Virus record (IMG/VR): IMGVR_UViG_3300028590_000039
Location: 1-42,996 of that record
DNA: 42,996 bases
Source of the DNA: a virus
Strand: one strand, 5' to 3'
Of this stretch, positions 3,244-17,269 are shown one piece after another (within the stretch, counting starts at the first letter, position 1; every line of letters starts with the position of its first letter). The position numbers were made by a program, and so were the translations under genes. The notes under the pieces were generated by a model. It saw nothing but the letters and a program-made list of their open reading frames with translations, did not search any database and had not been told where the DNA came from.

Positions 3244-6200
3244 TCACTTGCACTCCGACCAGCGGAAAGCCGCCTTCGAGACCTCGCAGAGGATCGGCAC
3301 CCCGCGCCACTCCCACGTGAACGCCGATTTCAGCGCCGCTGACCAGTACTCCGCCTCCTTCTCAGGCACTGACAGCACCACTTCGTCGTGAACGACCGCG
3401 CGCAGGTACGGCTGTACCGGCCGCCCCCATTCCTGGCACTTGCGCACCAGCCGCAGCAGGGACTCGCACATGATGTCCCTGGCCGCACCCTGGCCCATCA
3501 GGGCCGGACCCTGCGTGTACGCGCGCTCGGGATCGGGCCGCATCAGGCGCCCGAACCCGTTGTCGAGCAGGCGCCCGGACGCAGCCTCCTCCCGGATCTC
3601 AGCGATGTACTCCGCGAGACGCGGATACGCCTCGGCCTTGGCCTGCTGGATCTCGTAGCACTTCGCCAGGGGGATCCCGGTGCGCTCCGAGACAGCTTTG
3701 GGGCCCTGGCCGTAGTTCCCGGCGTGGTTGAACGCCTTGGTCTTCTGGCGGGACTCCTCGGTGCGCTCGCCGAAGTACACGTCGGACATCTCCATGTGCG
3801 CGTCCCGGCCCGGCTGGAGGATCTCGATGTACGCGGGGTCCTGGGACAGACCAGCCATGGCCCTGAGGTCGACCTGGGAGAGGTCGCAGGTGATGATCAC
3901 GTGACCCGGGTCGGCCACCATGATGTCCCGCTCGGCCGCACCGGCCCCGCGCTTGCCCATGGTGGAGATGCCCGGCTTGACCTGCGCCCACCGGCCGGAA
4001 CCCTGGGCGCTCCCGATCCATGCGTGCACCCGGCCCTTGTCCGTCACCCAGTTCGCCACCTCGGCGTACTTGCGCCGGGCGCCGGTGGCCTGGAGCACGA
4101 GTTCGACCACGCGCCCGAGCTCCTCGTTGCCTGCGTACACCTGCATGAGCCCCGGCTGGGACTTCCCGGTGTCCGTGTTGAACCAGGGCTTGTACCCGAG
4201 TGCGTCCGAGCCGAGCGCCAGCTGACCGGACTTGGTAGTCGGCAGGTGACGGGCCCCCGCGTCCCGGAACGCCCGGTCGATGGCCTCACGGCCACCCTCG
4301 GTCGCCCACGGCGCGTCGTAGACCTCGCCAGGGATGCGTTCAGCCAGCCCGCGCGCCACGGCCGCCTCGGGGAACAGCCGCATGTACCGGCGCGCGGCCA
4401 CGATGGCCAGCCCGTGGACCGTCTTGGGTTCGAGACGACGCTCGCCGACCGGCTCACCGTCGTCGTCCAGGTCCTGTGTCCAGCGCAGGTAGGTGACCGA
4501 CCGCCGGTCCTGGAGAACGAGGGGCCACTCGCGCTTGGACTTCAGCTTGAACCGGTCCGGCCGGTGCGTCGGCATCCCGTACTCCTCGGCGAGGATCCGG
4601 ACCGCCTCCGCGCGCTGCGCGTCCTCGTGCGCAACCCGTTCGGCGAGGAGCTCGGTGTCGACCGCCCAGCCGTTCAGCGTCATGCGGTTCTGAAGCGCCA
4701 CAACCTGCATCTCGCGCTTGGCGTAGTCGCTCATCTCCGGCATGGCCTCGTACACGGCCTTGGTGGCCGCGAGGTCGCCGCGAAGGTAGTCCTGGTACTC
4801 CTTGTCCGTGACCGGGATCTTGTCGAACCCGCCGTGAATGCGGGCCATGGCCTTGAGGTAGTCGGTCTTGCCCTCGTGGCCGAGGCGCTGCGCCACGGCA
4901 TCCAGGCCGTAGTAGCCGTTCGGCATGCCCTTGGACAGCGGCGGATCGATCAGGCGGGCCAGGACCATCGTGTCGACGGACTTGGCCGCGAGCGCGTCGT
5001 AATCGGCCCCGTGATGGTGCGCCAGGGCGAGCAGGTCGAACCCGAGGATGTTGTGGCCGTAGATCACGTCGGCCCGGTTCAGTTCTTCGATCAGCGGCTC
5101 GGGCTTGATCAGTGCCAGATCGTTGTAGTCGGCGATCACGCCAGGGAGCCGCACGAACGGGCCCTCGTGCCCGCCGGTGAACAGCTTGTCCGCGTCGGCG
5201 GTCTCCAGGTCGAACCCGATGGCGACGGGCTCAGGCGCCGGAGGCGTCTCTCCCCAGCCATCGGGAAGCTCGGCCGCCGGTTCATTTCCCCAGAACTCCG
5301 GCGCCGGAGACTCCGGCTCGCGCTCGCCCGTGAACGGGTCCATGCCGTCCGTGCTGATCTCCACGTTGCTCCACCCCCGTTGCTGCTTGCCGCCGACGCT
5401 GAACCGGCCCTGCTGGACCTTGGCCGCGCGCACGATGTCGTGGGACCCGAACCGGGACGCGAACGTCCGGTCGTTCCACGGCCGGTGGCCGCGCTCGCCA
5501 GCCCAGTCGTTGAACGCCTTGAGCATGGACTGGGTCTGGGTGAACGCGCCCTGCTCGAAGCGCAGGCACTCGTCCGCGAAGCCCAGGATCAGATCGGTCT
5601 CGGCCCGCCAGTCCCGCGTTTCACGCTCGACCTGCTCGGGCACCGGCAGCATCATGCGGCCGCGCGCGTACCAGGCCCGCGCGCCCTCGACCATCCAGGA
5701 GAGGGCCGCAGCGCGCACGAGAGCGTCGTTCGCGGCGTAGGCGAGCTTCGGGTCGCCCGTACGGTCGTACGGCCCTGAGAGGGGCACTCCGGGCTTCCGG
5801 AAGGTGAACGGCCACGGCATCAGGGACAGACGGCGCCACGTGCCGTGGTCGGTCTCGGTGACGATCGGCCGGTAGTTCGTGTTGATGAACAGGCTGTGCG
5901 AGGTCAGGAACTCCACCGGGTCCTGCCGGATCCGGCGGGCCTTGATGGACTCGGTGCCGATCGACGTCTTGAGCCGCTGGACGTTCAGGTGCCGGGCCTC
6001 AGGGGTTTCCTCCATCAGCGCGTAGCGGGCGCCACGGAAGTCCATGAGCTCCGTCGGGTGCGCGTCCGGGTTGGCCATGAGCACGCGGTCCGACACCAGG
6101 ACGCCGTAGTCGCCCAGGGTGCGCCGGACGATGTTCATGACGGTCGACTTGCCGTTGGCGCCACCGCCGTGGGCGATCACCAGCATGTGGTCCGGGACCG

Positions 6201-7497
6201 GGTGGCCGGTCAGGGCCTGTCCCATGCGGTCCTGGAACCATTCCTGCATGCCCTCGGGCACGGCCGACAGGGCGGTGTCCCAGTGCGGGTTCTGGCAGCG
6301 CGCCCGGTACTCCGCGTCGGCCGACTTGGTGATGCAGTGCTCGGGGTCGAACGGCAGGAGCTTGCCCGAGGGCAGGTGGATGGTCCCGTTCTTGCACGTG
6401 AGCAGGTCCGGGTCCCCGTCGAACTCGGCCGCGTCCCGCTGGAGCAGGCCCTTGGCCAGGTCGCGCAGGGCGACCAGGCGGCCCTTGTTCAGGATGGCGC
6501 GCCAGCCCGCGATCTTGGAGGTGATCGTGGGGTTGGACCGGTCCCGCTTCTGCTCATCACAGGCCGCGTCGTGCTGCTCAGCGGCCCACACCCGGACCTG
6601 CTCCAGGGGTTCGACCTCGGAGACTTCCTTCCATACGCGCCCGTTCCAGCGCAGCCACCCGAGGCCGGAAGCCCAGCAGAAGCGGCCCTGGAGCGATCCG
6701 GCGAGCTCCTCGACCAGGAACGCGTCCGTGAACGAAGCGTCCTTCTCGCCCGTGCCGGGGGGCTTCTCCGTGGCTGCAGCCGACAGGGCCTCCATCGTGC
6801 CCCCGGCCGCGAAGAAGTCGTCCACGCCCTTGACGGGGGTGCCGTCGACCTCGGCCGGTACCACCAGATAGTGGACCGTGGTGGCGCCCCGGGACTTCAG
6901 CCACGCGCCCAGGCGGACCATGGCCAGCTGCACGTGCCGGTTGCCGGAGGCGTCCGAGTCGAAGCAAACGACGGCCGGACGGCCCTTGATGGGGATCTCG
7001 TCCCAGTCGCCGAGGACGCCTTGGCGGGACTTCCAGTTGAAAACTCCCGTCAGGCCCACGGCCGCCCGGCCCTGGGACACGAGACAGTCCGTCTTCTTCA
7101 CGCCCTCGGTAATCCACAGGGGCGTGGAGGGCGCCTCGCGCAGCCTCTCGGCCGTGAAGGAGGGGACGTCGACGACGTTGGGGTGGCCCTTGGGGGTCTC
7201 GTACTTGATCGGGGTGGCGTGGCCGTCCGTGGTGCGCATGCGCGGGATGCGGGGCTTGAACTGGTGGCCGCGTACGGACCCGTCCATGCCGTGCATGGGG
7301 ATCAGGAGGCCGGGATAGGCGTCGTCGCGCCCGTGGACGTAGGGGAGGAAGCCGAGGGACTCCAGGAGGTCCCTGTCCTCGCCCGTGCCGGTGAGGGTGC
7401 GGTAGCCGCGTGCGGCGGCGATGTCCTCGGCCACGGCCGAGTCGTGGGTGATTTCCTGGTAGTGCTCGGAAGACAGCTCTCCCGTGATGAGGCCCAT
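3244..7497 (-). CDS. Primase-SF3 helicase-family A DNA polymerase fusion, 1417 aa
   Basis: One reading frame holds a replisome. Residues 1-240: Toprim-like DUF3854-type domain (WITEGVKK at 128-135, VVCFDSDASGN at 176-186). Residues about 360-570: D5/P4-type SF3 helicase with Walker A GGGANGKST (444-452), acidic motif LMEETPE (494-500) and motif C FINTNYRP (537-544). Residues about 757-915: DEDD 3'-5' exonuclease with FDLET (762-766), YGHNILGFD (813-821) and YLRGD (904-908). Residues about 1195-1417: PolA palm with motif A CDLSQVDLR (1204-1212), O-helix RQKTKAFNHAGNYG (1250-1263) and motif C VVHDEVV (1368-1374). The O-helix has His1258 where E. coli Pol I has Phe762. ATG at 7497 follows AGAAGGGTACCGA. 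It copies the phage genome and probably primes and unwinds it. Confidence 0.93.
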   Translation of the reverse strand: MGLITGELSSEHYQEITHDSAVAEDIAAARGYRTLTGTGEDRDLLESLGFLPYVHGRDDAYPGLLIPMHGMDGSVRGHQFKPRIPRMRTTDGHATPIKYETPKGHPNVVDVPSFTAERLREAPSTPLWITEGVKKTDCLVSQGRAAVGLTGVFNWKSRQGVLGDWDEIPIKGRPAVVCFDSDASGNRHVQLAMVRLGAWLKSRGATTVHYLVVPAEVDGTPVKGVDDFFAAGGTMEALSAAATEKPPGTGEKDASFTDAFLVEELAGSLQGRFCWASGLGWLRWNGRVWKEVSEVEPLEQVRVWAAEQHDAACDEQKRDRSNPTITSKIAGWRAILNKGRLVALRDLAKGLLQRDAAEFDGDPDLLTCKNGTIHLPSGKLLPFDPEHCITKSADAEYRARCQNPHWDTALSAVPEGMQEWFQDRMGQALTGHPVPDHMLVIAHGGGANGKSTVMNIVRRTLGDYGVLVSDRVLMANPDAHPTELMDFRGARYALMEETPEARHLNVQRLKTSIGTESIKARRIRQDPVEFLTSHSLFINTNYRPIVTETDHGTWRRLSLMPWPFTFRKPGVPLSGPYDRTGDPKLAYAANDALVRAAALSWMVEGARAWYARGRMMLPVPEQVERETRDWRAETDLILGFADECLRFEQGAFTQTQSMLKAFNDWAGERGHRPWNDRTFASRFGSHDIVRAAKVQQGRFSVGGKQQRGWSNVEISTDGMDPFTGEREPESPAPEFWGNEPAAELPDGWGETPPAPEPVAIGFDLETADADKLFTGGHEGPFVRLPGVIADYNDLALIKPEPLIEELNRADVIYGHNILGFDLLALAHHHGADYDALAAKSVDTMVLARLIDPPLSKGMPNGYYGLDAVAQRLGHEGKTDYLKAMARIHGGFDKIPVTDKEYQDYLRGDLAATKAVYEAMPEMSDYAKREMQVVALQNRMTLNGWAVDTELLAERVAHEDAQRAEAVRILAEEYGMPTHRPDRFKLKSKREWPLVLQDRRSVTYLRWTQDLDDDGEPVGERRLEPKTVHGLAIVAARRYMRLFPEAAVARGLAERIPGEVYDAPWATEGGREAIDRAFRDAGARHLPTTKSGQLALGSDALGYKPWFNTDTGKSQPGLMQVYAGNEELGRVVELVLQATGARRKYAEVANWVTDKGRVHAWIGSAQGSGRWAQVKPGISTMGKRGAGAAERDIMVADPGHVIITCDLSQVDLRAMAGLSQDPAYIEILQPGRDAHMEMSDVYFGERTEESRQKTKAFNHAGNYGQGPKAVSERTGIPLAKCYEIQQAKAEAYPRLAEYIAEIREEAASGRLLDNGFGRLMRPDPERAYTQGPALMGQGAARDIMCESLLRLVRKCQEWGRPVQPYLRAVVHDEVVLSVPEKEAEYWSAALKSAFTWEWRGVPILCEVSKAAFRWSECK

Positions 7498-11596: not shown

Positions 11597-11800
11597 ATGG
11601 ACGTCAACTGGGCACAGCTGGGGTTCGCAGGTGGCCTCGGACTTGTGATCGGTTTCGTGGTCCTGGCGTCCGGTGTATGGATGGACAAGATCCGTGACCG
11701 GAAGTTTAACCGCGATGTGCGGGCCCTGACCGGTGCTCCGGACGTGCGCCGGACGAACCGCGCGATCCGGATGATCCGGGGTCTGCGCCGTGGCGCGTAA
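11597..11800 (+). CDS. Small single-TM membrane protein, 67 aa
   Basis: ATG at 11597 after GAGAGAGGAG. Residues 8-28 (LGFAGGLGLVIGFVVLASGVW) form one transmembrane helix. The C-terminal 35 residues are strongly basic and probably cytoplasmic. No family is recognised. The next gene starts within its last 11 bases. Confidence 0.75.
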   Translation: MDVNWAQLGFAGGLGLVIGFVVLASGVWMDKIRDRKFNRDVRALTGAPDVRRTNRAIRMIRGLRRGA

Positions 11801-12170
11801 CACCACCCGGCAGGGCGCCAACTTCGAACTCAAGGTGATGCACGACCTGGAGGGGCACGGGTACACGTGCCTGCGCTCCTCCGGTTCGCGCGGCGCCGTC
11901 GACGTTGTGGCGGTGGCAGAGCTGGGGCGGTTCAACCTGTTCGACGAAACCGGCTACCTGCTCTTCATCCAGTGCAAGATCACCAACCCGGTGATCCCGC
12001 CCTACGAGCGCACCGCCGTCCAGGACCTGGCCATGAGGGCCGCAGCAATCCCTCTCGTGGCCCACTGGGCGGCCGACAAGACCACCGGACTCATGAGGGT
12101 CCACTACCGAATGCTGACGGGCCCCGGGCCCAGGGACTGGGCGCACTGGGCGCCCGGGGAGGATGACTGA
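11790..12170 (+). CDS. Holliday-junction-resolvase-like nuclease, 126 aa
   Basis: GTG start overlapping the previous gene by 11 bp. It matches the small archaeal-Hjc/VRR-NUC-like PD-(D/E)XK fold: Glu13 in GANFELKV, GSRGAVDVVAV with Asp38, and IQCK at 60-63. The usual ExK is QxK here, as in many phage members. The likely role is cutting branched DNA during recombination or clearing replicated DNA before packaging. The 1-bp TGATG junction with the next gene indicates coupling. Confidence 0.85.
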   Translation: MARNTTRQGANFELKVMHDLEGHGYTCLRSSGSRGAVDVVAVAELGRFNLFDETGYLLFIQCKITNPVIPPYERTAVQDLAMRAAAIPLVAHWAADKTTGLMRVHYRMLTGPGPRDWAHWAPGEDD

Positions 12171-12907
12171 TGGCGATCTTCACCTACGCGGACTACGACG
12201 GCGACGAACTGGACGTGCACGACAACCCCGAACGGGGTACCCCGGCGCTCGTCTTCCACAGCACCCGGAACAACGACCGCACCCGCACGCTCGTGAGCGT
12301 CCAGCTGAGCCGTGAGGAGGTCACCAAGCTCCACGCGGCCCTGGGTGAATGGCTGTACCCCGCCTACGCGGGCACCCCCGACACCAGCCTCCTGGAGCGC
12401 ATGGTCCGCAAGGCGGCCGAGGACGCCGTGAGCGCGGTCCTCCCCCTCGCGGCCCGCCCCGGCGCCGGACACATCGACGTCGATCCCGAGCCGCGCGACG
12501 TCGGCCACCCCGAGCCCACGTGGGACGACAAGCTGTGGGGCTCCATGGACGGTCCCGAGAGCGGCGGCCCGTGCGGGGAGCTGGCCAAGCGCGGCGTGCG
12601 CCTCAGCGACCCCTGTCAGGCCTGCGGGTACCTGTGGGCGCTCCACCGGGCGCAGCCCGTCTGCGGGTGCATCCGGACCGGCGCCCCCATCGGCGAGCAG
12701 TGCCCCGACTGCGCGCACTGGCACCGCACCGGCACCCGCTGTATGAAGCCCAGTGAGGTACAGGCGCCCCGACAGCTGGTCGGCTGCGAGTGCGGACACC
12801 GATGGGGTCTCCACGGCGGTGCTGCTTGCCACGGCCAGATCTCGGGCGGCCGTACCTGCGAGTGCACCCGGCTCACCCAGGCCGATGCGCACCGGGGCCT
12901 CCAGTGA
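12170..12907 (+). CDS. Cys/His-rich protein, 245 aa
   Basis: ATG overlaps the previous stop. The N-terminal 80 residues look globular, with FTYADYDGDELDVHD and SREEVTKLHAALGEWLY. From about residue 130 there are repeated zinc-knuckle-like units (CQACGYLWALH, CGC, CPDCAHWH, CECGHRWGLH, CECT), so several zinc sites are probable. No enzyme family is recognised. The last 280 bp already contain copies of the GYACYC/GRGTRC hexamer that fills the following gene. Confidence 0.75.
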   Translation: MAIFTYADYDGDELDVHDNPERGTPALVFHSTRNNDRTRTLVSVQLSREEVTKLHAALGEWLYPAYAGTPDTSLLERMVRKAAEDAVSAVLPLAARPGAGHIDVDPEPRDVGHPEPTWDDKLWGSMDGPESGGPCGELAKRGVRLSDPCQACGYLWALHRAQPVCGCIRTGAPIGEQCPDCAHWHRTGTRCMKPSEVQAPRQLVGCECGHRWGLHGGAACHGQISGGRTCECTRLTQADAHRGLQ

Positions 12908-13710
12908 GTGCGGGTACCCGCAAGGACTGGATCCTCTGGGGTGCACTCGGGTGCGCACTCGTCTCCACCGCGCACGCCGAGTACACCCTGGCCACCGCAG
13001 CGCACTTCAACGAGTACGTCGCACTCGCCGTACCCGGCGCACTCGACCTGTACGTGGTGCGCGCACTCCAGCAGCGCCGGGACGTGTTCGTGGCCGTACT
13101 CGCGATGGTCGCGGCCAACGTGACCTCGCACCTGATCGCCGGAGGCGTACTCGACGTCCGGTGGCCGGTCATCGCGGCCGTGGGTGCAGTCGCACCCCTG
13201 ATCGTGTGGCGGGTGTACTCGCTGAAGTACACCCGTACCCGGCAGGAACTCATCTGGGGTACGGAGGCGGGTGCAGTGAGTGCACCCGTACCCGACTCCG
13301 CACCCGAGGCGGGTACACCCGTACCCGTCGCAGGTCAGAGCCTTGCACCCGTACCCGCATGGGCGCCCGGCTACCACCTGGACGGGTGCGACGGACAGCA
13401 CAAGGGCGAAGGCCCGATCGCCTGCACCCACCGCGCGAGTCAGCTGGAGTACGCCGCACCCGACCACGTACCCGCCGACTGGATGGCGGCCGAGTACCCC
13501 GAGACGTACCCGGGTACGGCCGTACTCGCCGCACAGGAAGACGAGTACGCGGACAAGTGGGAGGCGAGTGCGGACGCACCCGTGCCGTACCTGCGCCCGG
13601 TGCCCGCACTCCCGCCCGAGTACACCCCGGGTACGGCAGTGCACTCGGTCGTACTCGAAGATCGCGACAAGGAGTACGCCGCACCCGCGAAGGAGTACGC
13701 GGCCGGGTGC
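12626..13710. repeat. Dense array of hexamer GYACYC/GRGTRC
   Basis: By hand I count about 57 occurrences (some overlapping) of GTACCC, GTACTC, GCACCC, GCACTC or their complements in 1.08 kb, about 51 of them within 12904-13710. Eight hexamers out of 4096 would give only a few. They appear in both orientations and in all three codon phases, and they force codons that are uncommon in this GC-rich genome (GTA, GCA). The tape-measure gene shows only isolated copies. Selection acting on the DNA itself is the likeliest cause. Confidence 0.85.
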
Positions 13711-13818
13711 GCCATGTCCGGCACGGTTCCGTCCGTCCGGGGCATGCGGCGCGAACTCAGCATCGGACAGGACCGTGCGGACCGGCTGCTTGCGTGGCTC
13801 GAATCGGAAGAGAAGTGA
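12904..13818 (+). CDS. DUF2637-like membrane protein with C-terminal helical domain, 304 aa
   Basis: GTG overlaps the previous stop. Residues 9-104 contain about four membrane helices with the DUF2637-like signatures VPGALDLYVVRAL and AANVTSHL, as in spread/transfer-associated proteins of Streptomyces plasmids. A Pro/Ala/Tyr-rich linker (120-270) follows, with a possible Cys/His pair (C162, C174). The last 30 residues (SVRGMRRELSIGQDRADRLL) look like a small winged-helix or wHTH end, also typical of DUF2637 proteins. The gene is saturated with the GYACYC/GRGTRC hexamer. The role in a phage is unknown; membrane-tethered DNA binding is an inference. Confidence 0.75.
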   Translation: MSAGTRKDWILWGALGCALVSTAHAEYTLATAAHFNEYVALAVPGALDLYVVRALQQRRDVFVAVLAMVAANVTSHLIAGGVLDVRWPVIAAVGAVAPLIVWRVYSLKYTRTRQELIWGTEAGAVSAPVPDSAPEAGTPVPVAGQSLAPVPAWAPGYHLDGCDGQHKGEGPIACTHRASQLEYAAPDHVPADWMAAEYPETYPGTAVLAAQEDEYADKWEASADAPVPYLRPVPALPPEYTPGTAVHSVVLEDRDKEYAAPAKEYAAGCAMSGTVPSVRGMRRELSIGQDRADRLLAWLESEEK

Positions 13819-14042
13819 AGTTCATCGTCGCCCAGAACTACCAGCGCTACTACTGGTGGTGCCGGGAGCAGAATCCGCCGCTGAATCCGCGCGGACCCGA
13901 AGTCAAGTACGTGAAAGACATCAACACCCTGCGCGGCGTGGCGGTCGGATTCGACTACCTGTGCATCGGCGACTGGACCAGCCGCCCCGACTGGCGCGAT
14001 ATCCACCACGTCCTGCTCACCCGTGGAAAGAGGCCACAGTGA
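13815..14042 (+). CDS. Hypothetical aromatic-rich protein, 75 aa
   Basis: GTG overlaps the previous stop by 4 bp. It begins VKFIVAQNYQRYYWWCREQN and has a central beta-strand pattern (VKYVKDINTLRGVAVGFDYL). The register resembles small phage proteins that may act as nucleotide-binding or Rossmann-like fragments, but I cannot assign a family. The hexamer array stops before this gene. Confidence 0.7.
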   Translation: MKFIVAQNYQRYYWWCREQNPPLNPRGPEVKYVKDINTLRGVAVGFDYLCIGDWTSRPDWRDIHHVLLTRGKRPQ

Positions 14043-14122
14043 AAGACTTCATGCTCGGTCTGGTCTGGGGCCTCGCGGCCCTGGTCGCCCTGACCGCCTT
14101 CATGGACTGGGTGCTGCGATGA
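14039..14122 (+). CDS. 27-residue single-TM peptide
   Basis: GTG start in a 4-bp overlap, ending in a 4-bp overlap with the next ATG. The product is one hydrophobic helix (MLGLVWGLAALVALTAFMDW) with a terminal Arg. Overlaps on both sides argue for real translation despite the tiny size. Membrane peptide of unknown role. Confidence 0.55.
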   Translation: MKDFMLGLVWGLAALVALTAFMDWVLR

Positions 14123-14640
14123 ACGCCACTGAAGGCATTACCTACGGCACCCTTGTCATCGGCCTGATCTGCCTCGCGGCGGAGCTCGCCGACTGGTGGC
14201 CCGGCTTCAGGGCCTTACGGAAGGCCCCGCTCAAGCACGTGGCCGACCTGGCCCCCTTCTCGGCCATGTGGGCGGTCGGCGCACTGATGGCCATGTGCAC
14301 CGGAGGCGTTGTCGGATGGCTCACGGACTGGTTCGTCTGGGGTGCCGGATGGCTCGGTGACGCAGCCCTGATCTACGGGGTCGGGGGCGAGCGTCAGGCG
14401 GTCGCCCAGGGCCTCTCGCAGCCCCTCACGAACGGCGGGCTGGCCATGACGCTGATCATCCTCACCATTGCGGTCATCAGGATGAAGCGGGCCGGGGACG
14501 GACTCGGCTGGAGCCACAAGCGGGGCATCGTATCGGGGGCCACACTCGGTCTCTCGGCCGGGGTGGCGGCCGTGGTCGCCGTACCGCTCGCCTCGGCCGT
14601 CAACATGGCCGGGGCGTGGATCCCCGGGGGCACGCTGTGA
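14119..14640 (+). CDS. Multi-pass membrane protein, 173 aa
   Basis: ATG overlaps the preceding stop. Hydrophobic segments near residues 9-24, 46-67, 107-121 and 138-163 suggest four membrane helices. The loop around 85-105 is polar. No family is recognised. It sits in a run of small membrane proteins after the DUF2637-like gene, a common place in actinophages for genes altering the host envelope. Confidence 0.75.
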   Translation: MNATEGITYGTLVIGLICLAAELADWWPGFRALRKAPLKHVADLAPFSAMWAVGALMAMCTGGVVGWLTDWFVWGAGWLGDAALIYGVGGERQAVAQGLSQPLTNGGLAMTLIILTIAVIRMKRAGDGLGWSHKRGIVSGATLGLSAGVAAVVAVPLASAVNMAGAWIPGGTL

Positions 14641-16493: not shown

Positions 16494-16757
16494 ATGGATG
16501 AGCCCACGCTGGCCGAGATGATCCGGGCACTCCAGGCAGACGTCACGCGCATGCGCGCGGAGCAGTCGATGTACGTCACCAAAGAGATCATGGATCTCAA
16601 GCTGGCGGCCCTGGCGAAAGACCATCTCGATCTGGAGAACGCGGTCACGGCCGACCGGGCCCGGCTTGCCTCGGTGAACCGGTGGCTCTGGTCGGGCGTG
16701 GTCGCACCTGTCATCGTGGGCATCATCCTGTACGTCCTGATAGGGAAGCAGCCGTGA
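16494..16757 (+). CDS. Coiled-coil single-TM protein, 87 aa
   Basis: The ATG at 16494 (MDEPTLAEMIRALQADV) was chosen over an earlier in-frame start inside the endolysin. The first 65 residues are a coiled coil. One C-terminal membrane helix follows (SGVVAPVIVGIILYVLI). This tail-anchored layout next to the endolysin fits a lysis-accessory or holin-like protein. It overlaps the collagen-like gene by 4 bp. Confidence 0.7.
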   Translation: MDEPTLAEMIRALQADVTRMRAEQSMYVTKEIMDLKLAALAKDHLDLENAVTADRARLASVNRWLWSGVVAPVIVGIILYVLIGKQP

Positions 16758-17269
16758 AGACCGTCCGATGGTGGCTCGTGCTCGTGGCACTGTCCGTCGG
16801 CGTCGCGTACGCGATCGCGTACGGTTCACGGCTTGCCGACCGGCTGGACACCGCCGAACGTGACCGGGTCGCCCTCGCCCAGCAGGTGCGGTCCCTCGGC
16901 GGTGTCCCGGTCGCGGGACCCAAGGGCGACTCGGGCACGAACGGGAGGGACGGGCGTGATGGCAAAGACGGTACGGACGGCGGCCCCGGACCTGTCGGAC
17001 CTTCCGGCCCTGCGGGCATTGACGGCACAAATGGCAGCCAGGGCCCTGTCGGACCGCAGGGCGTGGCCGGGCCGCCGGGCCCGCAGGGGGAACGAGGAGA
17101 GCCCGGAGTTCAGGGCGTGGAGGGTCCGGCAGGCCCGCAGGGGGCTCAGGGGCCCGCTGGTCCGCAAGGCGACAAGGGCGAGCCTGCTGAAGCGTGCCCG
17201 GTCGGCTACACGGGCGCGATAGTAGAGATCGAGAAGCAGGACTACTTCCTGTGCCGAAAGGTGACGTAA
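16754..17269 (+). CDS. Membrane-anchored collagen-like protein, 171 aa
   Basis: GTG overlaps the previous stop. Residues 5-23 (RWWLVLVALSVGVAYAIAY) are an N-terminal membrane anchor or uncleaved signal. A coiled segment (28-48) follows, then about 30 Gly-X-Y triplets (55-144; GPKGDSGTNGRDGRDGKDG and onwards), and a C-terminal cap with two Cys (ACPVGYTG, FLCRKV). Collagen-like repeats usually occur in phage fibres. A membrane-anchored version beside lysis and terminase genes is less usual. It may be exposed on the cell surface or act in lysis. Confidence 0.85.
   Translation: MKTVRWWLVLVALSVGVAYAIAYGSRLADRLDTAERDRVALAQQVRSLGGVPVAGPKGDSGTNGRDGRDGKDGTDGGPGPVGPSGPAGIDGTNGSQGPVGPQGVAGPPGPQGERGEPGVQGVEGPAGPQGAQGPAGPQGDKGEPAEACPVGYTGAIVEIEKQDYFLCRKVT

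Follow-up and report, generated by a model that had tools for sequence, protein, structure and literature searches.

Hexamer arrays inside the genes of DUF2637-like proteins in actinobacterial phages and plasmids, and their predicted reading by the encoded C-terminal domain

Why does one gene of an actinobacterial phage contain the same short DNA motif dozens of times, and what might read it? Here, we address this question for a 43 kb phage contig (the window, i.e., the whole stretch of DNA that was analysed), which carries portal, terminase, endolysin, and primase-polymerase genes and whose major head protein is nearest to those of actinobacterial phages, with Actinoplanes phage phiAsp2 as the top match. 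The array gene lies between the replication genes and the lysis and packaging genes, directly after helicase and resolvase-like genes (Table 1). Its correct start is the GTG at 12904, which overlaps the stop codon of a Cys-rich gene without match in Pfam or PHROG; the L004 counterpart of this upstream gene is also Cys-rich and has diverged. The small gene that follows the array gene is probably part of the same operon. Open reading frames similar in length to the 1417-aa primase-polymerase are present in G002 and G003, and none above 1000 aa was seen in 40 kb of G001.

Table 1 Features in and around the hexamer array (window positions)
Feature	Position	Strand	Description
Primase-polymerase ORF	3244-7497	-	1417 aa; DUF3854/D5_N primase-helicase domains fused to family A DNA polymerase
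Small gene	11790-12170	+	weak match to archaeal Holliday junction resolvase Hjc (E 0.008)
Cys-rich gene	12170-12907	+	245 aa; several CxC/CxxC motifs; first array sites in 3' third
Hexamer array	12626-13710	both orientations	57 GRGTRC/GYACYC hexamers; from the end of the Cys-rich gene through most of the array gene
Array gene	12904-13818	+	304 aa; DUF2637-like helical membrane domain, low-complexity linker, C-terminal helix-turn-helix (HTH) domain
Membrane domain	12922-13230	+	residues 7-109; predicted helices 7-32, 37-42/46-56, 61-79, 87-109
Low-complexity linker	13231-13647	+	residues 110-248; hexamer-dense
C-terminal three-helix HTH, proposed array reader	13648-13815	+	residues 249-304; FtsK-gamma-like
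Small downstream gene	13815-14042	+	counterpart in L003
Downstream gene, PHROG 16379	14023-14640	+	function unknown
Collagen-like triple-helix repeat protein gene	16682-17269	+	endolysin and terminase genes on either side

The array is the strongest local 6-mer cluster in the entire 43 kb. A preliminary description had put it at about 57 copies, about 51 of them in 12904-13710, with an onset in the previous gene; an exact recount returned 57, with 51 in the array gene, against a background of approximately 1.5 per 500 bp elsewhere in the window, and the onset inside the Cys-rich gene was confirmed. Copies occur in both orientations (26 GRGTRC, 31 GYACYC). They also occupy all three codon phases, as had been stated, but unevenly, with only three sites in phase 1. 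The refined consensus is C-GRGTRC-R, the preceding C being present in 77% of the sites and a following G or A in 89%, and TRF found no tandem repeats within the array. A motif bias of the whole genome was ruled out, as the counts outside the array (127 hexamers observed, 108 expected from a second-order Markov model) are near expectation.

The proposal that these hexamers constitute a recognition array at the DNA level, and not a by-product of protein composition, is upheld by synonymous shuffles and by homologs, the two tests that the preliminary description had named as able to refute it. Permutation of the array gene's own synonymous codons yielded 16.9±3.0 sites (maximum 28 in 1000 permutations) and resampling with the usual codon usage of the phage 12.1±2.4 (maximum 21), compared to 51 observed. 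The codons GTA and GCA, described as avoided by the neighbouring genes, make up 9 of 32 Val and 20 of 54 Ala codons in the array gene versus 19 of 440 and 60 of 675 elsewhere. Eleven other window genes match their synonymous shuffles; the tape-measure gene, in which only isolated copies had been noticed, has 4 sites with 3.2 expected.

The array recurs at the corresponding place in each of eight homologous phage genes, whose proteins are 45-70% identical to that of the window, and in these relatives it likewise begins in the gene upstream (L003 and L008 derive from one contig, L004 and L011 from another). Synonymous permutation revealed an excess of sites in nine of nine phage genes, which rules out protein-level bias. 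In each pairwise comparison, 12-26 sites are common to the window and the relative and 14-25 are found in the window only, and the count per gene stays at 29-57; over all phage pairs, 542 sites are shared versus 1252 unshared, and 70 of the shared sites coincide with changed residues. Sites thus turn over while density holds, i.e., the motif persists independently of the residues it encodes. The choice between A and G at hexamer position 5 shifts jointly across the sites of a gene: GRGTGC predominates in most relatives and GRGTAC in L012, and both bases are used in the window and in L006. A single HTH residue as determinant of this choice was considered and dropped, as L009 does not fit.

The naming of the array gene as DUF2637-like is supported by the homology of its membrane domain to plasmid DUF2637-like proteins (hhalign 99.6%). 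The window protein itself has no match to Pfam DUF2637 (PF10935), and the plasmid family member L014 reaches 18.9 bits, below the cut-off of 22.8. The membrane helices were predicted by AF2 at low pLDDT and hydropathy is strong only for residues 61-107; the predicted membrane topology of the phage protein is thus moderately supported. In the part of the literature that was covered, no phenotype is reported for DUF2637 proteins, and the domain is named in a single unrelated paper, incidentally.

The C-terminal domain was modelled alone because Foldseek with the full-length model was uninformative. AF2 predicted three helices for the last 56 residues at a mean pLDDT of 93.8, and the best Foldseek matches were HTH domains, including the KOPS-bound FtsK gamma domain 2ve9 (TM-score 0.63, rmsd 1.9 A over 44 columns), with no E-value reaching significance for this 56-residue domain. 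FtsK gamma is the domain that reads KOPS. The Pfam FtsK_gamma family (PF09397) matched three of eight homologs weakly (best E 0.005-0.0098), with 14.1 bits for the window protein and 17 for L003 at a gathering cut-off of 30.6. An hhalign comparison of the phage HTH with an FtsK gamma consensus, which was checked to match FtsK chains in the PDB, gave 90.5% probability and 32% identity over 38 columns, and the gamma-type recognition helix pattern (G..RA.RL) is present. A PDB sequence search with the phage HTH returned no meaningful match. The likeness to FtsK gamma is best taken as a resemblance rather than as established membership of that family.

Searches with the array protein (tblastn) reached plasmids of Streptomyces, Kitasatospora, and Micromonospora as well as phage pMLP1, mostly via the membrane domain. 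None of the first five distant homologs has a GRGTRC array, and in each a different short motif forms the array: CGGAAG in pMLP1, CGGTAC in NBC_01259, TGAGAG in S. chartreusis, CGGAAA in pVMKU, and TGAGAC in K. aureofaciens. Across plasmid, integrative and conjugative element (ICE), and phage homologs, arrays, with a motif that differs from class to class, were found in 46 of 50 genes tested versus none of 11 neighbouring control genes. Permutation was positive for 23 of 23 genes (19 of 19 plasmid or pMLP1-type genes and four phage genes) and negative for the 11 large neighbouring genes. A first scan of genome contigs for homologs gave no match; relatives in genome contigs were recovered by scanning with the plasmid-type membrane domain, and arrays were present in 17 of the 21 loci thus added from genomes and viral contigs, as well as in all six plasmid genes tested last. 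These loci were picked by membrane-domain homology alone, so that arrays were not selected for. L047, L048, L049, and L051, which have a near-identical membrane domain and a different C-terminus (PTASEFADAI...), lack a clear array, and a search for longer or gapped motifs in them gave nothing convincing.

Which protein reads the array? A ParB-like protein, one of two candidates named in the preliminary description, lost its basis, as no ParB_N domain was detected in the phage or its relatives. The other candidate, the C-terminal domain of the array protein itself, gained support from the covariation of motif and HTH. Most family proteins have a predicted HTH-like C-terminal domain, and these HTHs fall into unrelated classes. 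With the HTH-coding gene end and pairs within the window-type phage family left out, the mean motif cosine of a pair was 0.31 where the HTHs are related, 0.07 where only the membrane domains are, and 0.04 where neither is (p=2e-16 for 0.31 versus 0.07, pairs not being independent). Partial Mantel correlations were almost equal (0.33 for motif and HTH given the membrane domain, 0.32 for motif and membrane domain given the HTH), and more weight therefore falls on pairs that represent natural domain swaps. L050 and L051 have a membrane similarity of 0.98 and an HTH similarity of 0.07, L014 and L015 of 0.83 and 0.08, and a further pair, L043 and L044, of 0.76 and 0.09; motifs are unrelated in all three pairs, L051 being without a clear array. 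Of the six later plasmid genes, five (four CCGTACG, one CTGTACG) have the motif expected from their HTH class, and the sixth, with a diverged HTH, departs from the expectation by one base; closeness of their membrane domains to those of known members may have helped this success. As judged by these sequence comparisons, motif identity follows the C-terminal HTH and not the membrane domain, and the array is very probably read by the HTH of the protein encoded by the array gene.

We propose that the array gene product is a membrane-anchored, sequence-specific DNA-binding protein that would resemble FtsK without its motor, with several transmembrane helices at its N-terminus and, beyond a flexible linker, an FtsK-gamma-like HTH at its C-terminus. 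The approximately 57 hexamers would be its binding sites, encoded via codon choice and a linker that is free to vary, and with many protein copies bound there the phage genome would be held at the cell membrane, by a centromere or tether that the phage itself encodes. Within actinobacterial mycelium, such a tether would help the element to segregate, to replicate locally, or to move from one hyphal compartment to the next; its plasmid counterpart, whose gene opens the transfer region, may present the plasmid for transfer. We infer that the protein physically binds the array and tethers it to the membrane, and likewise what this is for (segregation, spreading, or transfer). If the HTH reads the array, tethering to the membrane is quite probable, and the model as a whole, in which a membrane tether of FtsK type but without a motor reads an array in its own gene, is one we hold with somewhat more belief than doubt. 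A role in spread or segregation rather than in regulation has roughly even chances. The four array-less relatives with a near-identical membrane domain and the one-sided site orientation in several plasmid classes count against the tether model.

The closest precedent for the position of the sites is SpdA2 of pIJ101, which binds sps sites within its own gene; silent removal of sps destabilises the plasmid (PMC4170104). Both systems belong to mobile elements of mycelial actinobacteria, and the hexamers, like sps, lie in the gene of their putative binding protein, where silent changes can remove them. SpdA2/sps affects segregational stability; binding of the window array by the encoded protein is suggested by the covariation of motif and HTH. 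The sps site, a conserved 12-bp palindrome, occurs 1-3 times, in contrast to arrays of 10-70 hexamers whose motif differs between elements (57 copies of GRGTRC in the phage array); SpdA2 is small and has a zinc-finger-like match, whereas the array protein combines a membrane domain with an HTH and has no SpdA-type N-terminus. Noc of Bacillus subtilis, through DNA binding and membrane attachment, recruits DNA to the membrane (PMC4331003), but is a CTPase of the ParB type that has an amphipathic helix and whose sites are dispersed across the chromosome. These two precedents, together with the lack of a motor or ParABS in window-type phages, are why we favour a centromere-like tether. The integral membrane protein p16.7 of phage phi29 likewise ties viral DNA to the host membrane, but contacts terminal protein and displaced strands, and no site array is reported there (PMC4974454). 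SpdB/SpdB2 of Streptomyces plasmids, encoded with transfer genes, is a membrane protein that binds double-stranded DNA (PMC4170104); this binding is, however, non-specific, and pIJ101 spdB, considered as an array-bearing homolog, was rejected, as it has neither an array nor detectable homology to the array gene.

FtsK gamma/KOPS and TraB/clt share with the proposed system a membrane-anchored protein with a C-terminal gamma-type HTH and short repeated motifs. The array protein differs from FtsK in that it is without an ATPase motor and that its putative sites are gathered in one gene and non-polar, and KOPS (GGGNAGGG) differs from the phage array motif. The parallel to Streptomyces clt/TraB drawn in the preliminary description holds as an analogy but does not extend to the mechanism: TraB/clt requires an element-encoded FtsK/SpoIIIE-type ATPase, a translocase that reads the repeats, and no such motor (PF01580) was found in the window phage and the six relatives searched. 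ParABS needs an element-encoded ParA and ParB, and no ParA (AAA_31) was detected in the window phage family either. Without motor, ParA, or ParB, neither TraB/clt nor ParABS applies to window-type phages, in which a tyrosine integrase was not found either.

An alternative is autoregulation by roadblock, in which the protein, bound to the array in its own gene, halts transcription of that gene and of the operon downstream, and thereby controls how much of it is made and when lysis genes (phage) or transfer genes (plasmid) come on. The array is inside a transcribed gene that is usually followed by co-oriented genes, and self-recognition agrees with the covariation of motif and HTH. We nevertheless regard this explanation as unlikely: at least 50 sites are far beyond need, a membrane anchor would be purposeless, and some plasmid array genes precede gaps or opposite-strand genes. 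Rather improbable, too, is a clt/TRS- or pac-like site at which a translocating motor would start transfer or packaging. The array gene of conjugative plasmids heads the transfer region, as a rule with two small genes and an ATPase or VirD4/FtsK-like gene behind it; TraB assembles on 8-bp TRS repeats (PMC4170104), and the phage array is located approximately 4 kb upstream of the terminase genes. However, window-type phages lack the required motor, it is the DUF2637-like protein's own HTH with which the motif varies, and the small terminase gene has no array.

A function at the RNA level, with repeats that form hairpins or bind protein in the mRNA, is very improbable, even though complementary orientations are able to pair and the coding RNA of the window gene (z -5.2) and of some relatives exceeds its synonymous shuffles in folding stability, an extra stability that inverted hexamers alone may cause. 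The strand split, near even in every phage (218 to 224 in total), suits duplex DNA, class L014 with a 13:1 orientation shows little extra folding (z -1.7), and the C-termini resemble DNA-binding HTHs. Least probable are replication origin iterons within the gene, as in lambda O, for which the position right after helicase and resolvase-like genes would speak, but the encoded protein looks membrane-type and not like an initiator, plasmid homologs are in transfer regions, and no GC-skew turning point lies consistently at the array in five phages.

Recurrence of this arrangement in Streptomyces and Micromonospora plasmids suggests an undescribed way to mark DNA and hold it at the membrane. DUF2637, a domain of unknown function, gains a concrete and testable role, and a DNA code hidden in coding sequence keeps pace with its presumed reader domain. 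Small motif differences between members with related HTHs make the family a natural data set for the evolution of HTH specificity. If the tether model is true, it would account for the holding or spreading of phage and plasmid genomes in multicellular hyphae, a step for which hardly any specific DNA handles are known. More speculatively, and to us doubtful in this breadth, self-marking could be widespread: DUF2637-type membrane proteins with exchangeable HTHs, reading element-specific arrays in their own genes, would tether their elements and carry plasmids and phage genomes through the septated mycelium, the phages having taken over the spreading device of plasmids.

Several plasmid versions of the protein have an extra N-terminal coiled coil similar to DivIVA/Wag31 or Scy (best E 4.6e-7), e.g., L023 (2939-4741); this could point to hyphal tips, and generic coiled-coil similarity is also possible. 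Single-hexamer clusters were also seen outside the array gene, namely eight copies of CTGACA in L061-L062 (G010, about 10.2-11.7 kb), six of CGTTAA in L053 (G001, about 12.6-14.1 kb), and ten of GGCCAA in L066 (W02, about 33 kb of the record).
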